DNA of 64,000 nucleotides from Novosphingobium sp. 28-62-57. GTDB taxonomy: Bacteria > Pseudomonadota > Alphaproteobacteria > Sphingomonadales > Sphingomonadaceae. A program made the position numbers and the translations under genes. Positions 21,167-27,939 of this stretch are shown piece after piece. The notes under the pieces were generated by a model. It saw only the letters and a list, made by a program, of their open reading frames with translations. It ran no database searches and had not been told where the DNA came from. Location: contig NCGO01000011.1 in assembly GCA_002256985.1 (NCBI GenBank), positions 62,001 through 126,000 of the forward strand, read 5' to 3'. The stretch's first letter is position 1. Every line of letters begins with the position of its first letter.

Positions 21167-22873
21167 TTAGTTGCGAGCCTTCAGCGCCGCACCAAGGATG
21201 TCGCCCAGCGATGCGCCGGCATCCGACGAACCGTACTGTTCCACGGCTTCCTTCTCTTCATGGAGCTGACGCGCCTTGACCGAGAAGTTGGGCTTCTTCG
21301 AACGGTCGAAGCCGGTGACCATCGCGTCGAGCTTCTGGCCAACCTGGAAGCGGTCGGGACGCTGTTCGTCACGATCACGGCCAAGGTCCGAACGCTTGAT
21401 GAAGCCGGTTGCGCCGTCTTCGCCAGCCTGCACTTCAAGCCCGCCATCGCGCACTTCAAGCACGGTCACGGTGATCACTTCACCGCGGCGCAGCGATCCG
21501 GTCGCGCTTGCAGCAGCGCCACCGGCTGCCGGAGCACCCTTTTCAAGCTGCTTCATGCCAAGGCTGATGCGTTCCTTTTCCACATCCACGTCGAGCACGA
21601 CGGCCGAAACCTGCTCGCCCTTGCGGTGCAGCGCCAGCGCGTCTTCGCCCGAGATGCCCCATGCGATGTCCGACATGTGGACCATGCCGTCCACGTCGCC
21701 GTCCAGACCGATGAACAGGCCGAACTCGGTGGCGTTCTTGACTTCGCCTTCCACGGTCGAACCGACCGGGTGCTTGTCGGCAAAGGCTTCCCACGGGTTC
21801 TGCTGGGCCTGCTTGAGGCCAAGCGAGATGCGGCGCTTGTCGCTGTCGACTTCGAGCACCAGCACGTCGACTTCCTGCGAAGTCGAAACGATCTTGCCGG
21901 GGTGGACGTTCTTCTTGGTCCACGACATTTCCGAAACGTGGACCAGGCCTTCGATGCCCGCTTCCAGTTCCACGAACGCGCCATATTCGGTGATGTTTGT
22001 GACAACGCCCGAAAGCTTTGCACCCACCGGATACTTCGCAGCCACGCCATCCCACGGATCGCTTTCCAGCTGCTTCATGCCCAGGCTGATGCGCTGCGTG
22101 TCCTGGTTGATGCGCACGATCTGCACCTTCACCGTGTCGCCGATGGCGATCACTTCCGAAGGATGGTTCACGCGCTTGTAGCTCATGTCCGTCACATGGA
22201 GCAGGCCATCGATGCCGCCAAGATCAACGAACGCGCCGTAATCGGTGATGTTCTTGACCACGCCGTCGATGATCTGGCCTTCCTTGAGGTTCATGATCAG
22301 GCCAGAACGCTGTTCTGCGCGGGTTTCTTCGAGGACTGCGCGGCGCGAAACCACGATGTTGCCACGGCGGCGATCCATCTTCAGGATCTGGAACGGCTGA
22401 GGCATGTCCATCAGCGGGGTCACATCGCGCACCGGGCGGATATCAACCTGCGAACCGGGCAGGAACGCCACGGCGCCATCGAGGTCGACCGTAAAGCCGC
22501 CCTTCACGCGGCCAAAGATCACGCCTTCAACGCGCTTGCCTTCGCCGAATTCGTTTTCAAGCTTGTCCCATGCGGCTTCGCGGCGTGCGCGGTCGCGGCT
22601 GAGCATTGCTTCGCCGTCCGAGTTTTCGACCCGGTCGACATAGACTTCCACTTCATCGCCGACCGAAAGGCCATGCGGCTGGCCGGGCGAGGCGAATTCG
22701 CGCAGAGCCACGCGGCCCTCGCTCTTCAAGCCCACGTCGATGACGGCCTTGTCGTTTTCAATTGCGGTAATGGTGCCTTTGACGACGCGGCCTTCAAAGC
22801 CCCCGTTGGCGGCTCCGCCAAGCGATTCGTCAAGCATCGCGGCGAAATCGTCGCGCGACGGATTGGTAGCCAT
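21167..22873 (-). CDS. rpsA: 30S ribosomal protein S1
   Basis: S1 helps mRNA bind the 30S subunit, mainly when the leader is structured. The 568-residue protein has six S1/OB-fold repeats, seen as repeated GAFVDLGG..GLLHVTDMSYK-type blocks at regular intervals. ATG 22873 with AGGAAG ahead gives the conserved N-terminus MATNPSRDDFAAML. In most relatives cmk lies directly upstream; here about 3.1 kb of foreign-looking DNA separates them. Confidence 0.97.
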   Translation of the reverse strand: MATNPSRDDFAAMLDESLGGAANGGFEGRVVKGTITAIENDKAVIDVGLKSEGRVALREFASPGQPHGLSVGDEVEVYVDRVENSDGEAMLSRDRARREAAWDKLENEFGEGKRVEGVIFGRVKGGFTVDLDGAVAFLPGSQVDIRPVRDVTPLMDMPQPFQILKMDRRRGNIVVSRRAVLEETRAEQRSGLIMNLKEGQIIDGVVKNITDYGAFVDLGGIDGLLHVTDMSYKRVNHPSEVIAIGDTVKVQIVRINQDTQRISLGMKQLESDPWDGVAAKYPVGAKLSGVVTNITEYGAFVELEAGIEGLVHVSEMSWTKKNVHPGKIVSTSQEVDVLVLEVDSDKRRISLGLKQAQQNPWEAFADKHPVGSTVEGEVKNATEFGLFIGLDGDVDGMVHMSDIAWGISGEDALALHRKGEQVSAVVLDVDVEKERISLGMKQLEKGAPAAGGAAASATGSLRRGEVITVTVLEVRDGGLEVQAGEDGATGFIKRSDLGRDRDEQRPDRFQVGQKLDAMVTGFDRSKKPNFSVKARQLHEEKEAVEQYGSSDAGASLGDILGAALKARN

Positions 22874-23153
22874 AATTAAAGCTTCCTGTAACAAGTATCC
22901 CGGCCAGGCGGTTGTTTCCGCCGGTCTTTCCTCCACGATCCGCCCCATGCGAACCGCAGGCCAAAAAGGGCCGAACCGCCCCCGAAGCCGAACGCTGGCG
23001 GAGGCACCCGTGCGAGCGTGAGCCTGCACAGATGGGCGGCGCTTAGGCGCAAAGGGTGGGAAAGGCAAGGAAAATGGGGGTGCGCAGGACAAGTGCAACC
23101 GCCAGTCATTCAGGACCGGAAGTGAGCAATAAACCAGGCTTAAAAAATTTTTT

Positions 23154-23205
23154 CCCCAGGGATAAAATCTATCAGATGCATATTGACGGATAAATATCCC
23201 TGGGG
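23154..23205. repeat. perfect 11-bp inverted repeat upstream of the DGQHR gene
   Basis: CCCCAGGGATA at 23154-23164 is matched by TATCCCTGGGG at 23195-23205, 30 bases apart. A run of A and T (TTAAAAAATTTTTT) lies just to its left. It may be a hairpin, a regulator site or the edge of the inserted segment. Confidence 0.7.
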
Positions 23206-23230
23206 CATTAATCCTTCACGCCTGGAGTGG

Positions 23231-23265
23231 CCCACCTCTAAGTGTCCCACCTCTAAGTGTCCCAC
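23231..23265. repeat. 15-bp tandem repeat (CCCACCTCTAAGTGT)
   Basis: The unit CCCACCTCTAAGTGT occurs twice in full and a third time in part (CCCAC), ending 30 bases before the DGQHR start codon. Its place just ahead of the gene suggests operator-like repeats, but a leftover of insertion is equally possible. Confidence 0.75.
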
Positions 23266-23295
23266 TCGGCAGGTGAGCTTTGAAAGAGAATTTTT

Positions 23296-24762
23296 ATGTA
23301 CGCCAAGGTTGACGGTCTGCCTACCCCCATTCGTTCGATGCAAACGCTTGATGCTCTTGATGCGCTTTCGGACTCCGGCGACATCAATGAGACGCCGTTT
23401 AATGTTTTTATCGGACATAATCTCGGCCATCGCGTCTTCACGATGTCTGTCCCATTCCGCAAGTTTTTTGATATTTCGGACGTTGCAAACAACCGAGAAG
23501 CTGGACCTGTCGCCCAACGGACATTGGACGAGAACCATGCAAAGAAGCTGGCGATTTACATGGCTAAAGGGCTGGTTTCTGCAGCGAAAATGCGCCGTAT
23601 CGCAGCTGATAAGCCGGTGCCTGCCGCGTTTGATGTCATCCTGCGTCAGCTTGGTGAGCAGCCTTATTTTTCGTTGCAGCCGCTGGTTTGTAACATTCGC
23701 AACATCCCGCCTGGCGGAAATGGGACGGGCGGCATTCGCGGATTTCGGTTGGAAACGAATACTGGCGAAACCGCTGCCTTTAAGGTCTTTCTATCTGAGC
23801 GTCACATTTTGTGGGTAGTTGACGGTCAGCACCGCCGATATGCGGCAGACATGGCGATGACCTTTCTGGATCAGGTGCGCCAGTCTGGAAAATATCCCGG
23901 TAAGGGAGCTGTTCTTTTTGCGGAGAAGGGGCGCGCTGTTACTGAAGAAGAAATGCTTGTTTGGAACGAGACGTATGAAGCAGCTCGTGCTTATGCAACT
24001 TTGACAGTCGAAGTTCATTTGGGCTTGGATATTTCTCAGGAAAAGCAGCTTTTTCATGACTTAAATCGGCTCGGTAAGAAAGTCGATGCTTCGTTGGCGT
24101 TTCAGTTCGATGGTTCCAATCCGATCACACACTTCATCAAGCGGAACCTGGCTGGTGACCTTGGCATTGCAATCACCGAGTCCGAAGCAAAAGATTGGGC
24201 TGAGGACACCGGAGCCTTGGTTTTGAAAGATTTGGTTGGTGTCAATGCGATCGCTTTCCTCAACAAAGGAAACATTGCAGGCGCAACTCCGGCCGTAATT
24301 GAGCCGCGCGAGTCAGCGGTGATGGAGCTTTGGAGCCGTGTCGTTGAGATTCCTAACTTTGCGTCAAATCGCGCTAAAGAGAAAACCGTTGCGGCCCAAC
24401 CGGTAGTTTTGAAAGCACTTGCTAAGCTCACTTATGATTTGAACTTTAGCAATCGTAGGCCGGAAAACGCCGATGAGTTGTTTCAACAATTTTTGAGTGG
24501 CCTAACGGAGGTTGATTTCTCACACAGCAATCCGATGTGGAACTATTACGGTCTGAGCGAAGGCGAACGGCTGGATGCCGGCCTTTCCGGTTTGGCGGCA
24601 TATTTGCCCGATGATTTAAGTGGAAACCGCGACGTCGGTTCTATGCAGGGAAGCTACATGCGCTTCGGTTCAAAGCACAATGATATCTTTCCGATCTTGG
24701 CTGATATGATCCGCTGGGCTTTGAAATTGCCAAGCCGCCGCGACAACTCTGTTCTACTTTGA
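23296..24762 (+). CDS. DndB-like DGQHR-domain protein
   Basis: The 488-residue protein carries the DGQHR signature at residues 176-180 (VVDGQHRRYAADM), an upstream ParB/DndB-like stretch (QRTLDENHAKKLAIYM, about 75-90) and a downstream HDLNRLGKKVD block. The family includes DndB, the regulator of DNA phosphorothioation systems, and related proteins of DNA-modification islands. No dnd, dpt, ssp or other modification gene lies nearby, so it is an orphan here. Its codons and base content are clearly more A+T rich (about 45-50% G+C in sampled lines) than its neighbours, a sign of transfer. A strong terminator follows. It lies in the middle of what is normally the cmk-rpsA junction. Confidence 0.85.
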   Translation: MYAKVDGLPTPIRSMQTLDALDALSDSGDINETPFNVFIGHNLGHRVFTMSVPFRKFFDISDVANNREAGPVAQRTLDENHAKKLAIYMAKGLVSAAKMRRIAADKPVPAAFDVILRQLGEQPYFSLQPLVCNIRNIPPGGNGTGGIRGFRLETNTGETAAFKVFLSERHILWVVDGQHRRYAADMAMTFLDQVRQSGKYPGKGAVLFAEKGRAVTEEEMLVWNETYEAARAYATLTVEVHLGLDISQEKQLFHDLNRLGKKVDASLAFQFDGSNPITHFIKRNLAGDLGIAITESEAKDWAEDTGALVLKDLVGVNAIAFLNKGNIAGATPAVIEPRESAVMELWSRVVEIPNFASNRAKEKTVAAQPVVLKALAKLTYDLNFSNRRPENADELFQQFLSGLTEVDFSHSNPMWNYYGLSEGERLDAGLSGLAAYLPDDLSGNRDVGSMQGSYMRFGSKHNDIFPILADMIRWALKLPSRRDNSVLL

Positions 24763-24779
24763 GAGCGAGGTTGCATTGT

Positions 24780-24813
24780 GCTCGTCCGATGTAAAGTTTC
24801 GGACGAGCGTTTT
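24780..24813 (+). terminator. rho-independent terminator after the DGQHR gene
   Basis: A perfect 10-bp stem, GCTCGTCCGA with TCGGACGAGC, closes on a 9-base loop and is followed by GTTTT. It lies 18 bases after the stop codon, so the gene is a self-contained transcription unit. Confidence 0.85.
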
Positions 24814-24828
24814 GCCAATGCGAGCACC

Positions 24829-24919
24829 GTCACCCTGAACTTGTTTCAGGGTCCATTTTTCGTCCCGCGCGGACAGTGGGTGAGGAGGAATGGATGCTGA
24901 AACGAGTTCAGCATGACGG
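24829..24919. repeat. palindromic repeat, CCTGAACTTGTTTCAGG family, single copy
   Basis: It opens with GTCACCCTGAACTTGTTTCAGGGTCCAT (in parts) and closes with ATGGATGCTGAAACGAGTTCAGCATGACG, an imperfect large inverted repeat. It is a diverged member of the array found at 25331-25877 on the other side of the GIY-YIG gene. Confidence 0.75.
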
Positions 24920-24984
24920 GTTTTTGGGGGGTGGTTTGCTGTAGTTGTTTTGCGGAAGCTTGTATGGTTGCGCTGTCCTGCGGT

Positions 24985-25320
24985 TCAGGGGGCATTTCCC
25001 GGAACTGGCTGGGCCAACGGGTCAAACCCCAACCCCACGGCCAAATCCCGCCAATCGGGATTTATCTCGTTGATCAGATTGATCTTCCACTGACGCCGCC
25101 AGTTCTTGAGCTGCTTTTCGCGGCTGATCGCCCGCTCCATGTCGCCGAACAGTTCGAAGTGGACGAGGCGTTTTACGCCGTGATCTGCGGTGAATCCGGG
25201 AAGTGTGCCTTCGCGGTGTTGCCACAGGCGCTTCATAAGGTCTGACGTCACGCCGATGTAAAGGGTGCCGTAATGCCCGCTTGCGAGGATATAGACGCAG
25301 GGTTGCTTTTCGTCCGGCAT
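24985..25320 (-). CDS. GIY-YIG nuclease-family protein
   Basis: A 111-residue single-domain GIY-YIG protein, with CVYILASG...TLYIGVTSDLMKRLWQHR as the active-site block near residues 8-36 and a later ERAISREKQLKNWRR helix with the catalytic-type Glu. Such stand-alone proteins are common in alphaproteobacteria; their substrate is not known. The gene is enclosed by palindromic repeats of one family on both sides (24829 and 25331 onward), and the reading frame ends start in or beside them. Confidence 0.88.
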   Translation of the reverse strand: MPDEKQPCVYILASGHYGTLYIGVTSDLMKRLWQHREGTLPGFTADHGVKRLVHFELFGDMERAISREKQLKNWRRQWKINLINEINPDWRDLAVGLGFDPLAQPVPGNAP

Positions 25321-25330
25321 GATCCCTGCG

Positions 25331-25366
25331 TGCCGAGGGATGGACCCTGAGACAAGCTCAGGGTGA
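25331..25366. repeat. partial palindromic repeat next to the GIY-YIG gene
   Basis: GATGGACCCTGAGACAAGCTCAGGGTGACG-type half element, the right arm of the family described at 25408-25877, lies just upstream of the GIY-YIG start codon. The left arm is missing. Confidence 0.6.
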
Positions 25367-25407
25367 CGCCGTTTTGGTGGGAATTGCTTTTCCCCTTCCC
25401 ACCTCCT

Positions 25408-25877
25408 TCGTCATCCTGAACTTGTTTCAGGATCCATCGTGCCGATCAGGCTGCGGGTTGCGGGGAGAGATGGACCCTGAAACAAGTTCAGGGTGACGGT
25501 TGGGTTTGGGGGTGAGGGATGGTTTGAGGGTGAGGGATGGTTTGAGGGTGAGGGCGGCAGTGCATTGTGATTTGCGCAGCCTTCCCACCACTTTCGTCAT
25601 CCTGAACTCGTTTCAGGATCCATTTTGCCGATCAGGCTGCGGGTTGCGGGGAGAGATGGACCCTGAAACAAGTTCAGGGTGACGGTTGGGTTCGGGGGGA
25701 AGGATGGTTTGCGGGCGAGGGGCGTTTTGTTGGCGACGGTGGCCGGGCATCGTGATGCGCCCAGCCTTCCCACCTCTTTCGTCATCCTGAACTTGTTTCA
25801 GGATCCATCGTGCCGATCAGGCTGCCGGTTGCGGGGAGGGATGGACCCTGAAACAAGTTCAGGGTGACGGTTGGGTT
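25408..25877. repeat. array of three palindromic repeat units (about 98 bp each)
   Basis: Three near-identical units lie at 25408-25507, 25594-25692 and 25779-25877. Each starts TCGTCATCCTGAAC, contains TTTCAGGATCCAT and GATCAGGCTGC, and ends GTTCAGGGTGACGGTTGGG. Within a unit the two arms CCTGAAC..GTTTCAGG and CCTGAAAC..GTTCAGG fold as hairpins and also pair with each other. Units are separated by about 86 bases of less conserved sequence. This fills the 646-base gap between the GIY-YIG gene and cmk, and no gene is seen in it. It is not a CRISPR array. Confidence 0.85.
25514..25549. repeat. 18-bp short tandem repeat inside the array
   Basis: The unit GAGGGATGGTTTGAGGGT occurs twice in a row between the first and second palindromic units. 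Confidence 0.75.
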
Positions 25878-25966
25878 TGAGAGGTAAGGTTTGGTTCCAG
25901 GGTGACGGGTTGGTTTGAGTGTGGTTGGGAATTGCAGTGTGCGCAGCCAACAACCCGTGCACCCAA

Positions 25967-26593
25967 TCACCCCCGCGCCACCTGCTTCTCCACCAGCGCA
26001 ATCGCCGTCGCCACCGCCATCTCCCGCGTCAAATTCGACGTGTCCAGCAACGCCGCGCCCTCGGCCTGCCGCAACGGAGCCTCCGCCCGGTTCCGGTCAC
26101 GCTCATCGCGCTCCGCCAGATCCGCCTCGATCGCCTCGCGCGCCACGTCCTTGCCCAGTCCGCGCATTTCCACCCAGCGCCGCATTGCGCGCGCGCTGAC
26201 GCTGGCGGTGACGAACAGCTTGGCGTCGGCATGGGGGGCGATCACGGTGGCGATGTCGCGGCCGTCCAGCACGGCGCCGCCTGCTTGGTTCGCAAAGGCC
26301 TGCTGCCGCGCCAGCAGCGCCGCGCGCACCGCCGGATGCACCGAAACGCGGCTGGCATAGCCGCCGGTTTCTTCGCTGCGCAGTTCGGGATCGTCCAGCA
26401 GGCTTTCCGCAAAATCGCAGGCCGCCAGCGCTGCGTGGGCATCATCGGGGTTGCCGCCGCTCAGGAAAACCTGCCGCCCCACCGCGCGATAGAGCAACCC
26501 GGTGTCCAGATGCGGCAGGCCGAAATGCGCAGCCAGCGCCTTTGCGATGGTGCCTTTGCCCGAAGCAGTCGGGCCGTCCACGGCGATGATCAT
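25967..26593 (-). CDS. cmk: cytidylate kinase
   Basis: Cmk phosphorylates CMP and dCMP with ATP in pyrimidine salvage and supply. The 208-residue protein has the P-loop GPTASGKGTIAK near its start and the VLDGRDIATVI motif in the middle. ATG 26593 overlaps the aroA stop as ATGA, so the two are coupled. The usual next gene, rpsA, lies 3.1 kb away beyond an insertion. Confidence 0.96.
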   Translation of the reverse strand: MIIAVDGPTASGKGTIAKALAAHFGLPHLDTGLLYRAVGRQVFLSGGNPDDAHAALAACDFAESLLDDPELRSEETGGYASRVSVHPAVRAALLARQQAFANQAGGAVLDGRDIATVIAPHADAKLFVTASVSARAMRRWVEMRGLGKDVAREAIEADLAERDERDRNRAEAPLRQAEGAALLDTSNLTREMAVATAIALVEKQVARG

Positions 26594-27939
26594 GCAGCAC
26601 GCGCCCCGTCGAGCAGGCTTTCGAACACCGGAAAGCTGGTGGCGATGGGCCGTGTGTCGTCCACTTCCACGCCGCGCTTGCTGGCGATACCGGCAATCGC
26701 CATCGCCATCGCAATGCGGTGGTCAAGGTGCGTCACGACGCTCAGCCCCTCTGCCGTGCCGGGCAGCGGATCGCCGCCGGTGCCATCGATGATCAGCCCG
26801 TCCTCGGTCTCGGTCACGGTTGCGCCCGCCAGTTCCAGCGCGGCGCGCATTGCGCTGATCCGGTCAGATTCCTTCACGCGCAGTTCTTCAAGGCCGGTGG
26901 TCACCGTGCGGCCATGGGCCAGTGCGGCGGCCACGAACAGCACCGGGAATTCGTCCACCATGCTCGGCACCACGGCGGGATCCACAGCGATGCCGGTCAG
27001 CAGCGAATGGCGCACGCGCAAGTCGGCCACCGGTTCACCGCCCACATCGCGCCGGTCCAGTTCCTCGATGCTCCCGCCCATCAGCCGCAGCACATCGAAC
27101 AGCGCGGCGCGCGTGGGGTTCAGCCCCACGTTTTCCACCACAAGATCAGAGCCTTCGACCAGCAGCGCCGCCACCACAAAGAAAGCGGCAGACGATGGAT
27201 CGCCCGGCACCACGATGTCCTGCGGCTGCAATTCCGCCTCACCGCGCACGCGGATCACCCGCGCACCATCATCGGCCAGATCGACCGTCAGTTCCGCGCC
27301 AAACCCGCGCAGCATCCGCTCCGAATGGTCGCGCGTCGGCACCGGTTCGATCACCGTCGTGATCCCCGGCGTGTTCAGCCCGGCCAGCAGAATGGCGCTC
27401 TTCACTTGCGCCGAAGCCACCGGCAGCCGGTATTCGATTGGTACCGCAGGCGAAATTCCGCGAAGGGTAAGGGGAAGTCGTCCGCCGGGGCTGGCGGTAA
27501 ATTCCGCGCCCATTGTGGACAGCGGATCGATCACGCGACCCATCGGGCGCTTCGACAGCGAACCATCGCCCACGAACGTCGCGGTAATCGGATGCGTGGC
27601 GACCAGCCCCATCAGCAGGCGGGTGGATGTGCCCGAATTGCCCATATCGAGCGCGCTTTGCGGTTGCAAAAGCCCGCCGACGCCCACGCCGTGCACATGC
27701 CACATGCCGTCTGCATCGCGCTCAATCGTCGCGCCCATCGCGCGCATGGCGGCGGCGGTGGAGAGTACGTCCTCGCCCTCCAGCAAGCCCGTCACCCGCG
27801 TCTCGCCCACCGCCAGCGCGCCCAGCATGATCGAGCGGTGGCTGATCGACTTGTCGCCTGGAACGCGGATGCGGCCCTTCAGCGGGCCATTGGCGGAGAA
27901 GCGGCGAGGGCGCATTTCAGCGGGATCGTGTGAGGACAC
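26590..27939 (-). CDS. aroA: 3-phosphoshikimate 1-carboxyvinyltransferase (EPSP synthase)
   Basis: AroA joins PEP to shikimate 3-phosphate on the route to aromatic amino acids. The protein of about 449 residues has PGDKSISHRSIML at the start, LDMGNSGTSTRL, ASAQVKSAILLAGLN and LEELRVKESDRI. It resembles the class II enzymes (CP4 type) in pattern, but the residue at the glyphosate position is glycine (NSGT), not the alanine of CP4, so natural resistance is not expected from that site. The start is taken as GTG 27939; ATG 27915 is the alternative. Confidence 0.94.
   Translation of the reverse strand: MSSHDPAEMRPRRFSANGPLKGRIRVPGDKSISHRSIMLGALAVGETRVTGLLEGEDVLSTAAAMRAMGATIERDADGMWHVHGVGVGGLLQPQSALDMGNSGTSTRLLMGLVATHPITATFVGDGSLSKRPMGRVIDPLSTMGAEFTASPGGRLPLTLRGISPAVPIEYRLPVASAQVKSAILLAGLNTPGITTVIEPVPTRDHSERMLRGFGAELTVDLADDGARVIRVRGEAELQPQDIVVPGDPSSAAFFVVAALLVEGSDLVVENVGLNPTRAALFDVLRLMGGSIEELDRRDVGGEPVADLRVRHSLLTGIAVDPAVVPSMVDEFPVLFVAAALAHGRTVTTGLEELRVKESDRISAMRAALELAGATVTETEDGLIIDGTGGDPLPGTAEGLSVVTHLDHRIAMAMAIAGIASKRGVEVDDTRPIATSFPVFESLLDGARAA

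Follow-up and report, generated by a model that had tools for sequence, protein, structure and literature searches.

We describe a lone DndB-like gene and its predicted regulatory region in a 64-kb window of the genome of Novosphingobium sp. 28-62-57 (the whole stretch of DNA analysed, whose coordinates are used throughout). The gene (23296..24762, plus strand, 488 aa) lies between rpsA and cmk and probably belongs to a self-contained, mobile one-gene cassette encoding an autorepressed ParB/DndB-type protein, which would act on a cooperative, phased operator unlike the published DndB operator. This foreign cassette (~23,081-24,810) combines a CCWGG array with a probable promoter, the gene and a probable terminator. 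The array recurs upstream of related genes in other bacteria and, judged by its sequence and spacing, is a predicted operator of a new type, belonging to a mobile gene that is related to DndB and mostly occurs alone. No description of a phased CCWGG array was found in the literature searched, and novelty is claimed no further than that literature.

A phased CCWGG array upstream of a DndB-like gene

The candidate operator array consists of four CCWGG sites, at 23134..23138, 23156..23160 (22 bp from the first), 23199..23203 (43 bp from the second) and 23221..23225 (22 bp from the third). These sites form the sole phased chain of three or more in the 64 kb, against 0.05 expected from 100 shuffles. 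Site 3 falls inside the spacer of a probable promoter, TTGACG-17-CATTAA (23183..23211, plus strand); another promoter candidate, with a 9-of-12 match, lies at 23,140-23,168. Between the operator and the start codon, the 5′ leader contains a 15-bp repeat (AGTGKCCCACCTCTA; 23226..23265, plus strand) in two copies followed by part of a third; on visual inspection of other family leaders, no such repeat stood out.

The array is a property of the gene family. Counting k-mers in the 150 bp immediately ahead of 22 family genes ranks CCWGG first, with 57 copies versus 6.2 in shuffled sequence, and each of these upstream regions contains 2-5 CCWGG (or CCATGG) sites. Of the 52 pairs of neighbouring sites within 200 bp, 50 are separated by 22-23, 31-33, 42-44 or 54 bp; the same gap classes account for 38 of 40 pairs when only 16 less-alike loci are considered, compared with 11.7% under random placement. 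The circular statistic for site phasing is 0.87, a value reached in none of 5,000 random placements. CCWGG density per 200 bp is 3.50 upstream of the gene, 0.45 both within it and downstream of it, and 0.49 over the remainder of the loci. Of 20 upstream regions, 16 have a phased chain with three sites or more, against 0 of 1,379 other 200-bp windows of the same loci (20 of the 22 loci, L010 and L099 being left out of this test). In four loci (L034, L036, L038 and L010) CCATGG replaces CCWGG at most or all sites with the spacing unchanged, and no specificity residue marking the proteins with CCATGG operators was found. A held-out locus (L100), not used for motif finding, carries five sites with gaps of 21, 21, 22 and 64 bp; one of these four gaps falls in the preset classes, and three do if 21 is admitted. 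The operator counts leave out gene fragments (L042, L048, L101), a broken near-copy of L046 with 2 sites 31 bp apart (L047), distant homologs at 22-31% identity (L113-L122) and two phage-type copies without sites (L105, L112).

Upstream regions of 22 other PF14072 genes contained four scattered sites and no array (22 of 26 loci with starts set mechanically, the short L007, L008, L025 and L028 being left out). Sites were likewise found in none of the 10 phage-type upstream regions examined (L049, L050, L104-L106, L108-L112), which represent 2 of 21 phage records (L049 and L050) and eight viral contigs. The published DndB operator, TACG-N10-CGTA, was found in 0 of 30 family upstream regions; it was reported for one Salmonella operon (PMC4507180) and may therefore not define the whole DndB family.

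Other elements of the predicted cassette show a similar recurrence, although the counts come without a control. In 15 of 22 family upstream regions a TTGAC-like hexamer is followed within 17 bp by a CCWGG site, and a perfect 9-10-bp hairpin lies within 90 nt past the stop codon in 12 of 22 loci. The probable intrinsic terminator of the window cassette is a hairpin at 24779..24809 (plus strand; -22.7 kcal/mol, z -4.79), equalled by 0 of 200 shuffles and followed by GUUUUG. A generic terminator scan returned 4 sites versus 4.6 in shuffles, this hairpin not being among them. We rejected an alternative terminator at 24,832, which is a repetitive extragenic palindrome (REP), the hairpin being the better candidate.

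The encoded protein contains the motif VDGQHRR and matches PF14072 (DndB) with 99 bits against a gathering cut-off of 29.1. It stays far below the DndB equivalog TIGR03233 (24 bits versus 328) and narrowly misses the DGQHR domain TIGR03187 (56.6 bits versus a cut-off of 58.85). A sequence search of the PDB gave no match below E 0.87. Fold comparison returned rows to nucleotide-bound ParB among its matches; the DGQHR motif would correspond to a pocket motif of ParB. A preliminary description of the region had placed this gene on the strand opposite to rpsA and cmk, with its own terminator and a composition more A+T rich than its surroundings; all of this holds, the gene having a GC content of 0.51 and the flanking 500-bp windows mostly about 0.6-0.7. 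The suggestion that the product is a DNA-binding regulator gains from the phased geometry at the gene's own promoter, and binding itself is what this geometry would imply. The same description had considered a complete dnd system elsewhere in the genome as a possible owner of the gene: no DndC above the cut-off was found there, the best match reaching 94.6 bits against 290.4, and DndD and DndE were not searched for. The DndC-like hit is a protein with a 3′-phosphoadenosine-5′-phosphosulfate (PAPS) reductase domain on an 11-kb contig of the same genome (L095, G000:C8, 614-4314); it adjoins a large C5 cytosine methylase, with an open reading frame (ORF) that looks integrase-like by eye further on.

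Sporadic distribution and the interval between cmk and rpsA

The DndB-like gene is foreign, sporadic and apparently transferred. A protein search located it in 1 of 98 genomes, its own; the remaining 97, of which 58 belong to the same genus and 39 to the order, are without it. A profile of the subfamily detected it in 4 of 385 genomes of the class (counting its own and one 3′ fragment) and, in the phylum, in its own alone of 398; in the genus of one carrier, a protein search gave 1 of 24 genomes. PF14072 as a whole is represented in 24 of the 296 genomes searched in the order, one of which (G324, locus L010) carries a close relative of the gene at 76% identity. Scanning one genome per species yielded 13 loci at 63-82% identity, one of them a 3′ fragment, in carriers that include Sphingomonas, Gluconobacter, Komagataeibacter, Shinella, Bradyrhizobium, Pseudomonas, Stenotrophomonas and Luteimonas; the scan requires exact short patterns, and 13 is therefore a lower bound. 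Among plasmids, 8 records match. Five of these cover 80% or more of the query, with identities that run from 67% on a 5.8-kb Paracoccus plasmid down to 42-47% on plasmids of Bacillota; the two Rhizobium records among the eight reach 24% identity over just 45% of the query. The 21 matching phage records are all Pseudomonas phages (44-45%), and 11 viral contigs encode near-full-length kin at 44-56%, with 10 more weak matches. Kin spanning most of the gene show 42-82% identity; they are scattered over Proteobacteria and also occur on proteobacterial and Bacillota plasmids and in Pseudomonas phages. In the protein tree, L010 from Sphingomonadaceae and L038 from Rhizobiaceae cluster together (100/100), a grouping across families that is the pattern expected from transfer. 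The array-less gene copies are carried by Pseudomonas phages of ~96-107 kb (L049 is classed as Otagovirus) and by similar viral contigs.

The interval that holds the cassette is bordered by rpsA on the left (21167..22873, minus strand, start at 22,873) and by cmk on the right (25967..26593, minus strand), with aroA upstream of cmk; rpsA and cmk are 3,093 bp apart. Three separate things occupy it: a native rpsA leader, the foreign one-gene cassette, and a GIY-YIG gene among CGTC-tagged palindromes. The leader (22874..23080, minus strand) is conserved in relatives and lies outside the insert. When positions 22,000-27,000 were compared by blastn with the loci of relatives, 18 loci crossed the rpsA start, their alignments ending at 22,934-23,096 and, in 4 of the 18, exactly at 23,080. 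In the closest relative by cmk (cmk 90% and rpsA 97% identical) the DndB-like gene is absent and the spacer measures 1,745 bp at 48% GC. That locus (L082, 706-2244) has ~1.5 kb of different, A+T-rich DNA at the same joint, comprising an HNH-like ORF just below the Pfam cut-off and two small ORFs; the presence of different foreign-like DNA there suggests that the cmk-rpsA joint is a receiver of foreign DNA. Of the cmk loci retrieved from 29 relatives, 18 have rpsA after cmk at a distance of 0.2-1.93 kb, 9 showed no rpsA in the 8.3-9.6 kb available next to cmk, and 2 could not be scored; cmk and rpsA do not form a tight unit in the genus.

These comparisons bear on most of what the preliminary description had read into the interval. 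The 3.1-kb gap, the order of aroA, cmk and rpsA, the GIY-YIG gene and the repeat array are all as it reported, and the junction comparison that it proposed supplied the left edge. Its view of a transferred single-gene module agrees with the absence of the gene from 97 other genomes, the end of leader homology at the edge and the different DNA in the closest relative. The notion of a split aroA-cmk-rpsA unit stands as regards order and gap, but not as regards a tight unit in the genus. A single insertion holding both genes is rejected, the GIY-YIG gene being a recurrent element of the genus with its own inverted palindromes, present in genomes without the DndB-like gene.

The GIY-YIG gene (24985..25320, minus strand; PF01541, 50.1 bits against a cut-off of 22.6) is flanked by inverted CGTC-tagged REP palindromes. 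These extend over 24826..25870, several of them paired, with a period of ~185 bp at 25,317-25,872; 8 palindromes with at most 2 mismatches were counted against 0.02 expected. Each side of the gene carries CGTCACCCTGAACTTGTTTCAGGGTCCA, which combines a CGTC tag, a short-loop stem-loop and a CCA tail. The GIY-YIG family is present in 38 of 59 genomes of the genus. Of the 30 loci returned by the genus search (L130-L159), 18 have inverted CGTC-tagged stem-loops on both flanks, versus 0 of 29 cmk control loci, and 25 have a tagged stem-loop on at least one flank, a case not counted in the control. Repeat sequences differ among GIY-YIG subgroups. Shared flank repeats measure 7-16 nt in the cmk control and up to 25 nt when flanks are swapped between GIY-YIG loci, because different loci carry the same repeat type. 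A close-relative scan found no kin of the window GIY-YIG gene in viral contigs. This part of the interval is a separate REP-linked element, which may already be known: GIY-YIG single-strand nucleases (Ssn), which cut single-stranded copies of a genomic repeat linked to them, were reportedly described in 2025. The protein is possibly an enzyme for REPs that are reported to have none, and perhaps a member of the Ssn family. In PMC3733652, CGTC-tagged REPs are said to lack a dedicated transposase. The REPs described there share the CGTC tag, stem-loop and CCA tail with the window palindromes; the word GIY-YIG is absent from that paper, whereas here GIY-YIG genes lie between inverted copies.

Neighbouring genes, proposed mechanism and alternative explanations

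Besides the DndB-like gene itself, no gene is common to all family loci. Mostly the DndB-like gene stands by itself; in three loci it is the first gene ahead of CBASS (cyclic oligonucleotide-based antiphage signalling system) or GHKL-ATPase genes. In L044, a CBASS two-transmembrane (2TM) effector and a cyclase begin 10 bp after it; in L039 and the viral contig L102, GHKL ATPases 54% alike follow directly, with PD-T7-1 further downstream in L039. Elsewhere, C5 methylase and Vsr genes lie nearby in L031, L038, L044 and L096 (the wider L010 locus), together with a BglII-like enzyme in L038; L035 has an RmrA-like gene 2.2 kb away and L107 a PDC-M30 pair beside the DndB-like gene. Overall, defence-type or GHKL neighbours were recorded in 8 of 22 loci, a count drawn from chosen neighbours and made without a control. 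The lone form put forward in the preliminary description is thus the usual state, though not the only one, some kin lying near or heading defence-type genes. In the 8 kin pairs with computable dS (synonymous divergence), the ratio of nonsynonymous to synonymous divergence (dN/dS) is 0.03-0.10, dS being saturated in the remaining pairs, including all 14 with the window copy; this purifying selection among kin indicates that the product is probably used even where the gene is alone.

The GHKL ATPase shared by two distant carriers (612 aa; L039 11542-13380, L102 3278-5116) matches no PADLOC model and may be an undescribed defence-type gene. Its kin on plasmids number 7 records at 27-41% identity, none of which also matches the DndB-like protein; a 73-76-aa ORF precedes the ATPase gene by 10 bp in two of three plasmid regions, the third listing none. 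No GHKL partner was found in phages, nor in the window's own genome by a search without a positive control.

In the mechanism we propose, the cassette would move as a unit of phased operator, promoter, gene and terminator, and its product, judged by family and fold, would be a ParB/DndB-type DNA-binding protein. Most likely, this protein binds CCWGG/CCATGG sites set whole helical turns apart; the array and its geometry are observed, and binding is what they suggest. Several molecules on one face of the DNA would bind cooperatively and cover the spacer between the -35 and -10 elements, which would shut off the gene's own promoter. Published work on DndB suggests that a nucleotide in the ParB-type pocket probably sets the switch. 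Where the gene comes first before CBASS or GHKL-ATPase genes, the same switch would gate those genes. The product of stand-alone copies would be useful to the carrier, as purifying selection among kin suggests, most likely, if speculatively, through control in trans of, or competition with, foreign or defence functions.

The neighbouring defence-type genes could also be read as the company of an effector, a repressed ParB/Srx-type nuclease or nucleoside triphosphate (NTP)-degrading enzyme held off by its own operator and released by infection. Tight repression of lone genes fits this idea, and statements in PMC10853773 suggest that ParB-type proteins such as DndB may be nucleases or nucleotide-degrading effectors. 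The neighbour count has, however, the weakness already noted, and phages, which carry the gene too, are unlikely to keep an anti-phage effector; we regard this explanation as rather unlikely. We give the same low credence to a counter-regulator acting in trans, whereby plasmid and phage copies would bind and silence the CCWGG operators of resident defence operons. The phage-type copies look constitutive, having no array and a best-scoring promoter that starts with TTGACA in 5 of 8 scored, and kin do head CBASS and GHKL genes behind an array; yet the control windows of the 20 loci contained no phased chain of three, the rest of the genome not having been scanned.

Some small plasmids without ParA rely on single-protein partition, and the array might accordingly act as a centromere, with the protein serving plasmid maintenance in the manner of ParB. 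The ParB rows in the fold comparison and the presence of the gene on the 5.8-kb plasmid pHAE2, for which an incomplete gene table lists no par gene, would agree with such a role. It is nevertheless highly improbable, since several copies reside on long chromosomal contigs (e.g. L037, L099) or in phages, and a 68-kb carrier plasmid has its own ParA gene. Only slightly more credible is a relic, a regulator that outlived the defence or dnd operon to which it belonged: modification islands are a known setting of DGQHR genes and the window copy has no partner alongside, but its ORF, operator and terminator are intact, the kin pairs evolve under the low dN/dS given above, and the stand-alone layout is repeated in many lineages.

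An autorepressed, mobile ParB/DndB-type switch remains our preferred explanation, and it admits a bolder extension that we consider improbable. Such switches would read the Dcm site CCWGG in phased arrays, with nucleotide state and possibly operator cytosine methylation setting expression; copies on chromosomes and plasmids would control CBASS, GHKL and restriction genes, and the phage copies, which have no array, would counter-regulate such operons in trans. If the phage copies do act in trans, they would represent a counter-defence strategy directed against regulators of defence genes. DndB is known as a regulator of phosphorothioation operons; the subfamily described here lies outside such operons, with a well conserved protein sequence and few carrier species, and its class of switch has apparently been adopted by some immune operons. 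Since the operator is recognisable from sequence alone, experiments can directly address which targets the switch has, what signal induces it and what part NTPs play.

Comparison with known regulators

The window protein shares the PF14072 domain and the DGQHR motif with DndB of dnd operons, and autorepression at its own promoter is likewise proposed for it. The gene differs from dnd-operon DndB in the lack of a DndC above the cut-off in the genome, in its score of 24 against 328 bits to the DndB equivalog, in having a CCWGG array instead of TACG-N10-CGTA, and in its own terminator. As for ligands, binding of ATP/GTP by a DndB-like protein is described in PMC12704722. Proteins of the ParB-CTPase fold may be related to the window protein, nucleotide-bound ParB being among its structural matches; unlike ParB, the window copy has neither a partner ParA nor parS beside it, and its sites, of 5-6 bp, are arrayed at one promoter.

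RptR, CapW and BrxR (PMC12255303, PMC9122588, PMC9122601 and PMC9122589) are promoter-bound regulators of defence operons. Their genes come first in some of these operons or lie next to the first gene, as do those of some DndB-like kin, and the palindromic sites of RptR and CapW lie over the -10 region, with three short palindromes in series for RptR. They belong to other protein families; the DndB-like copies mostly stand alone, and RptR has adjacent 9-bp repeats, in contrast to the sites of the DndB-like array, which are 22, 33 or 43 bp apart.

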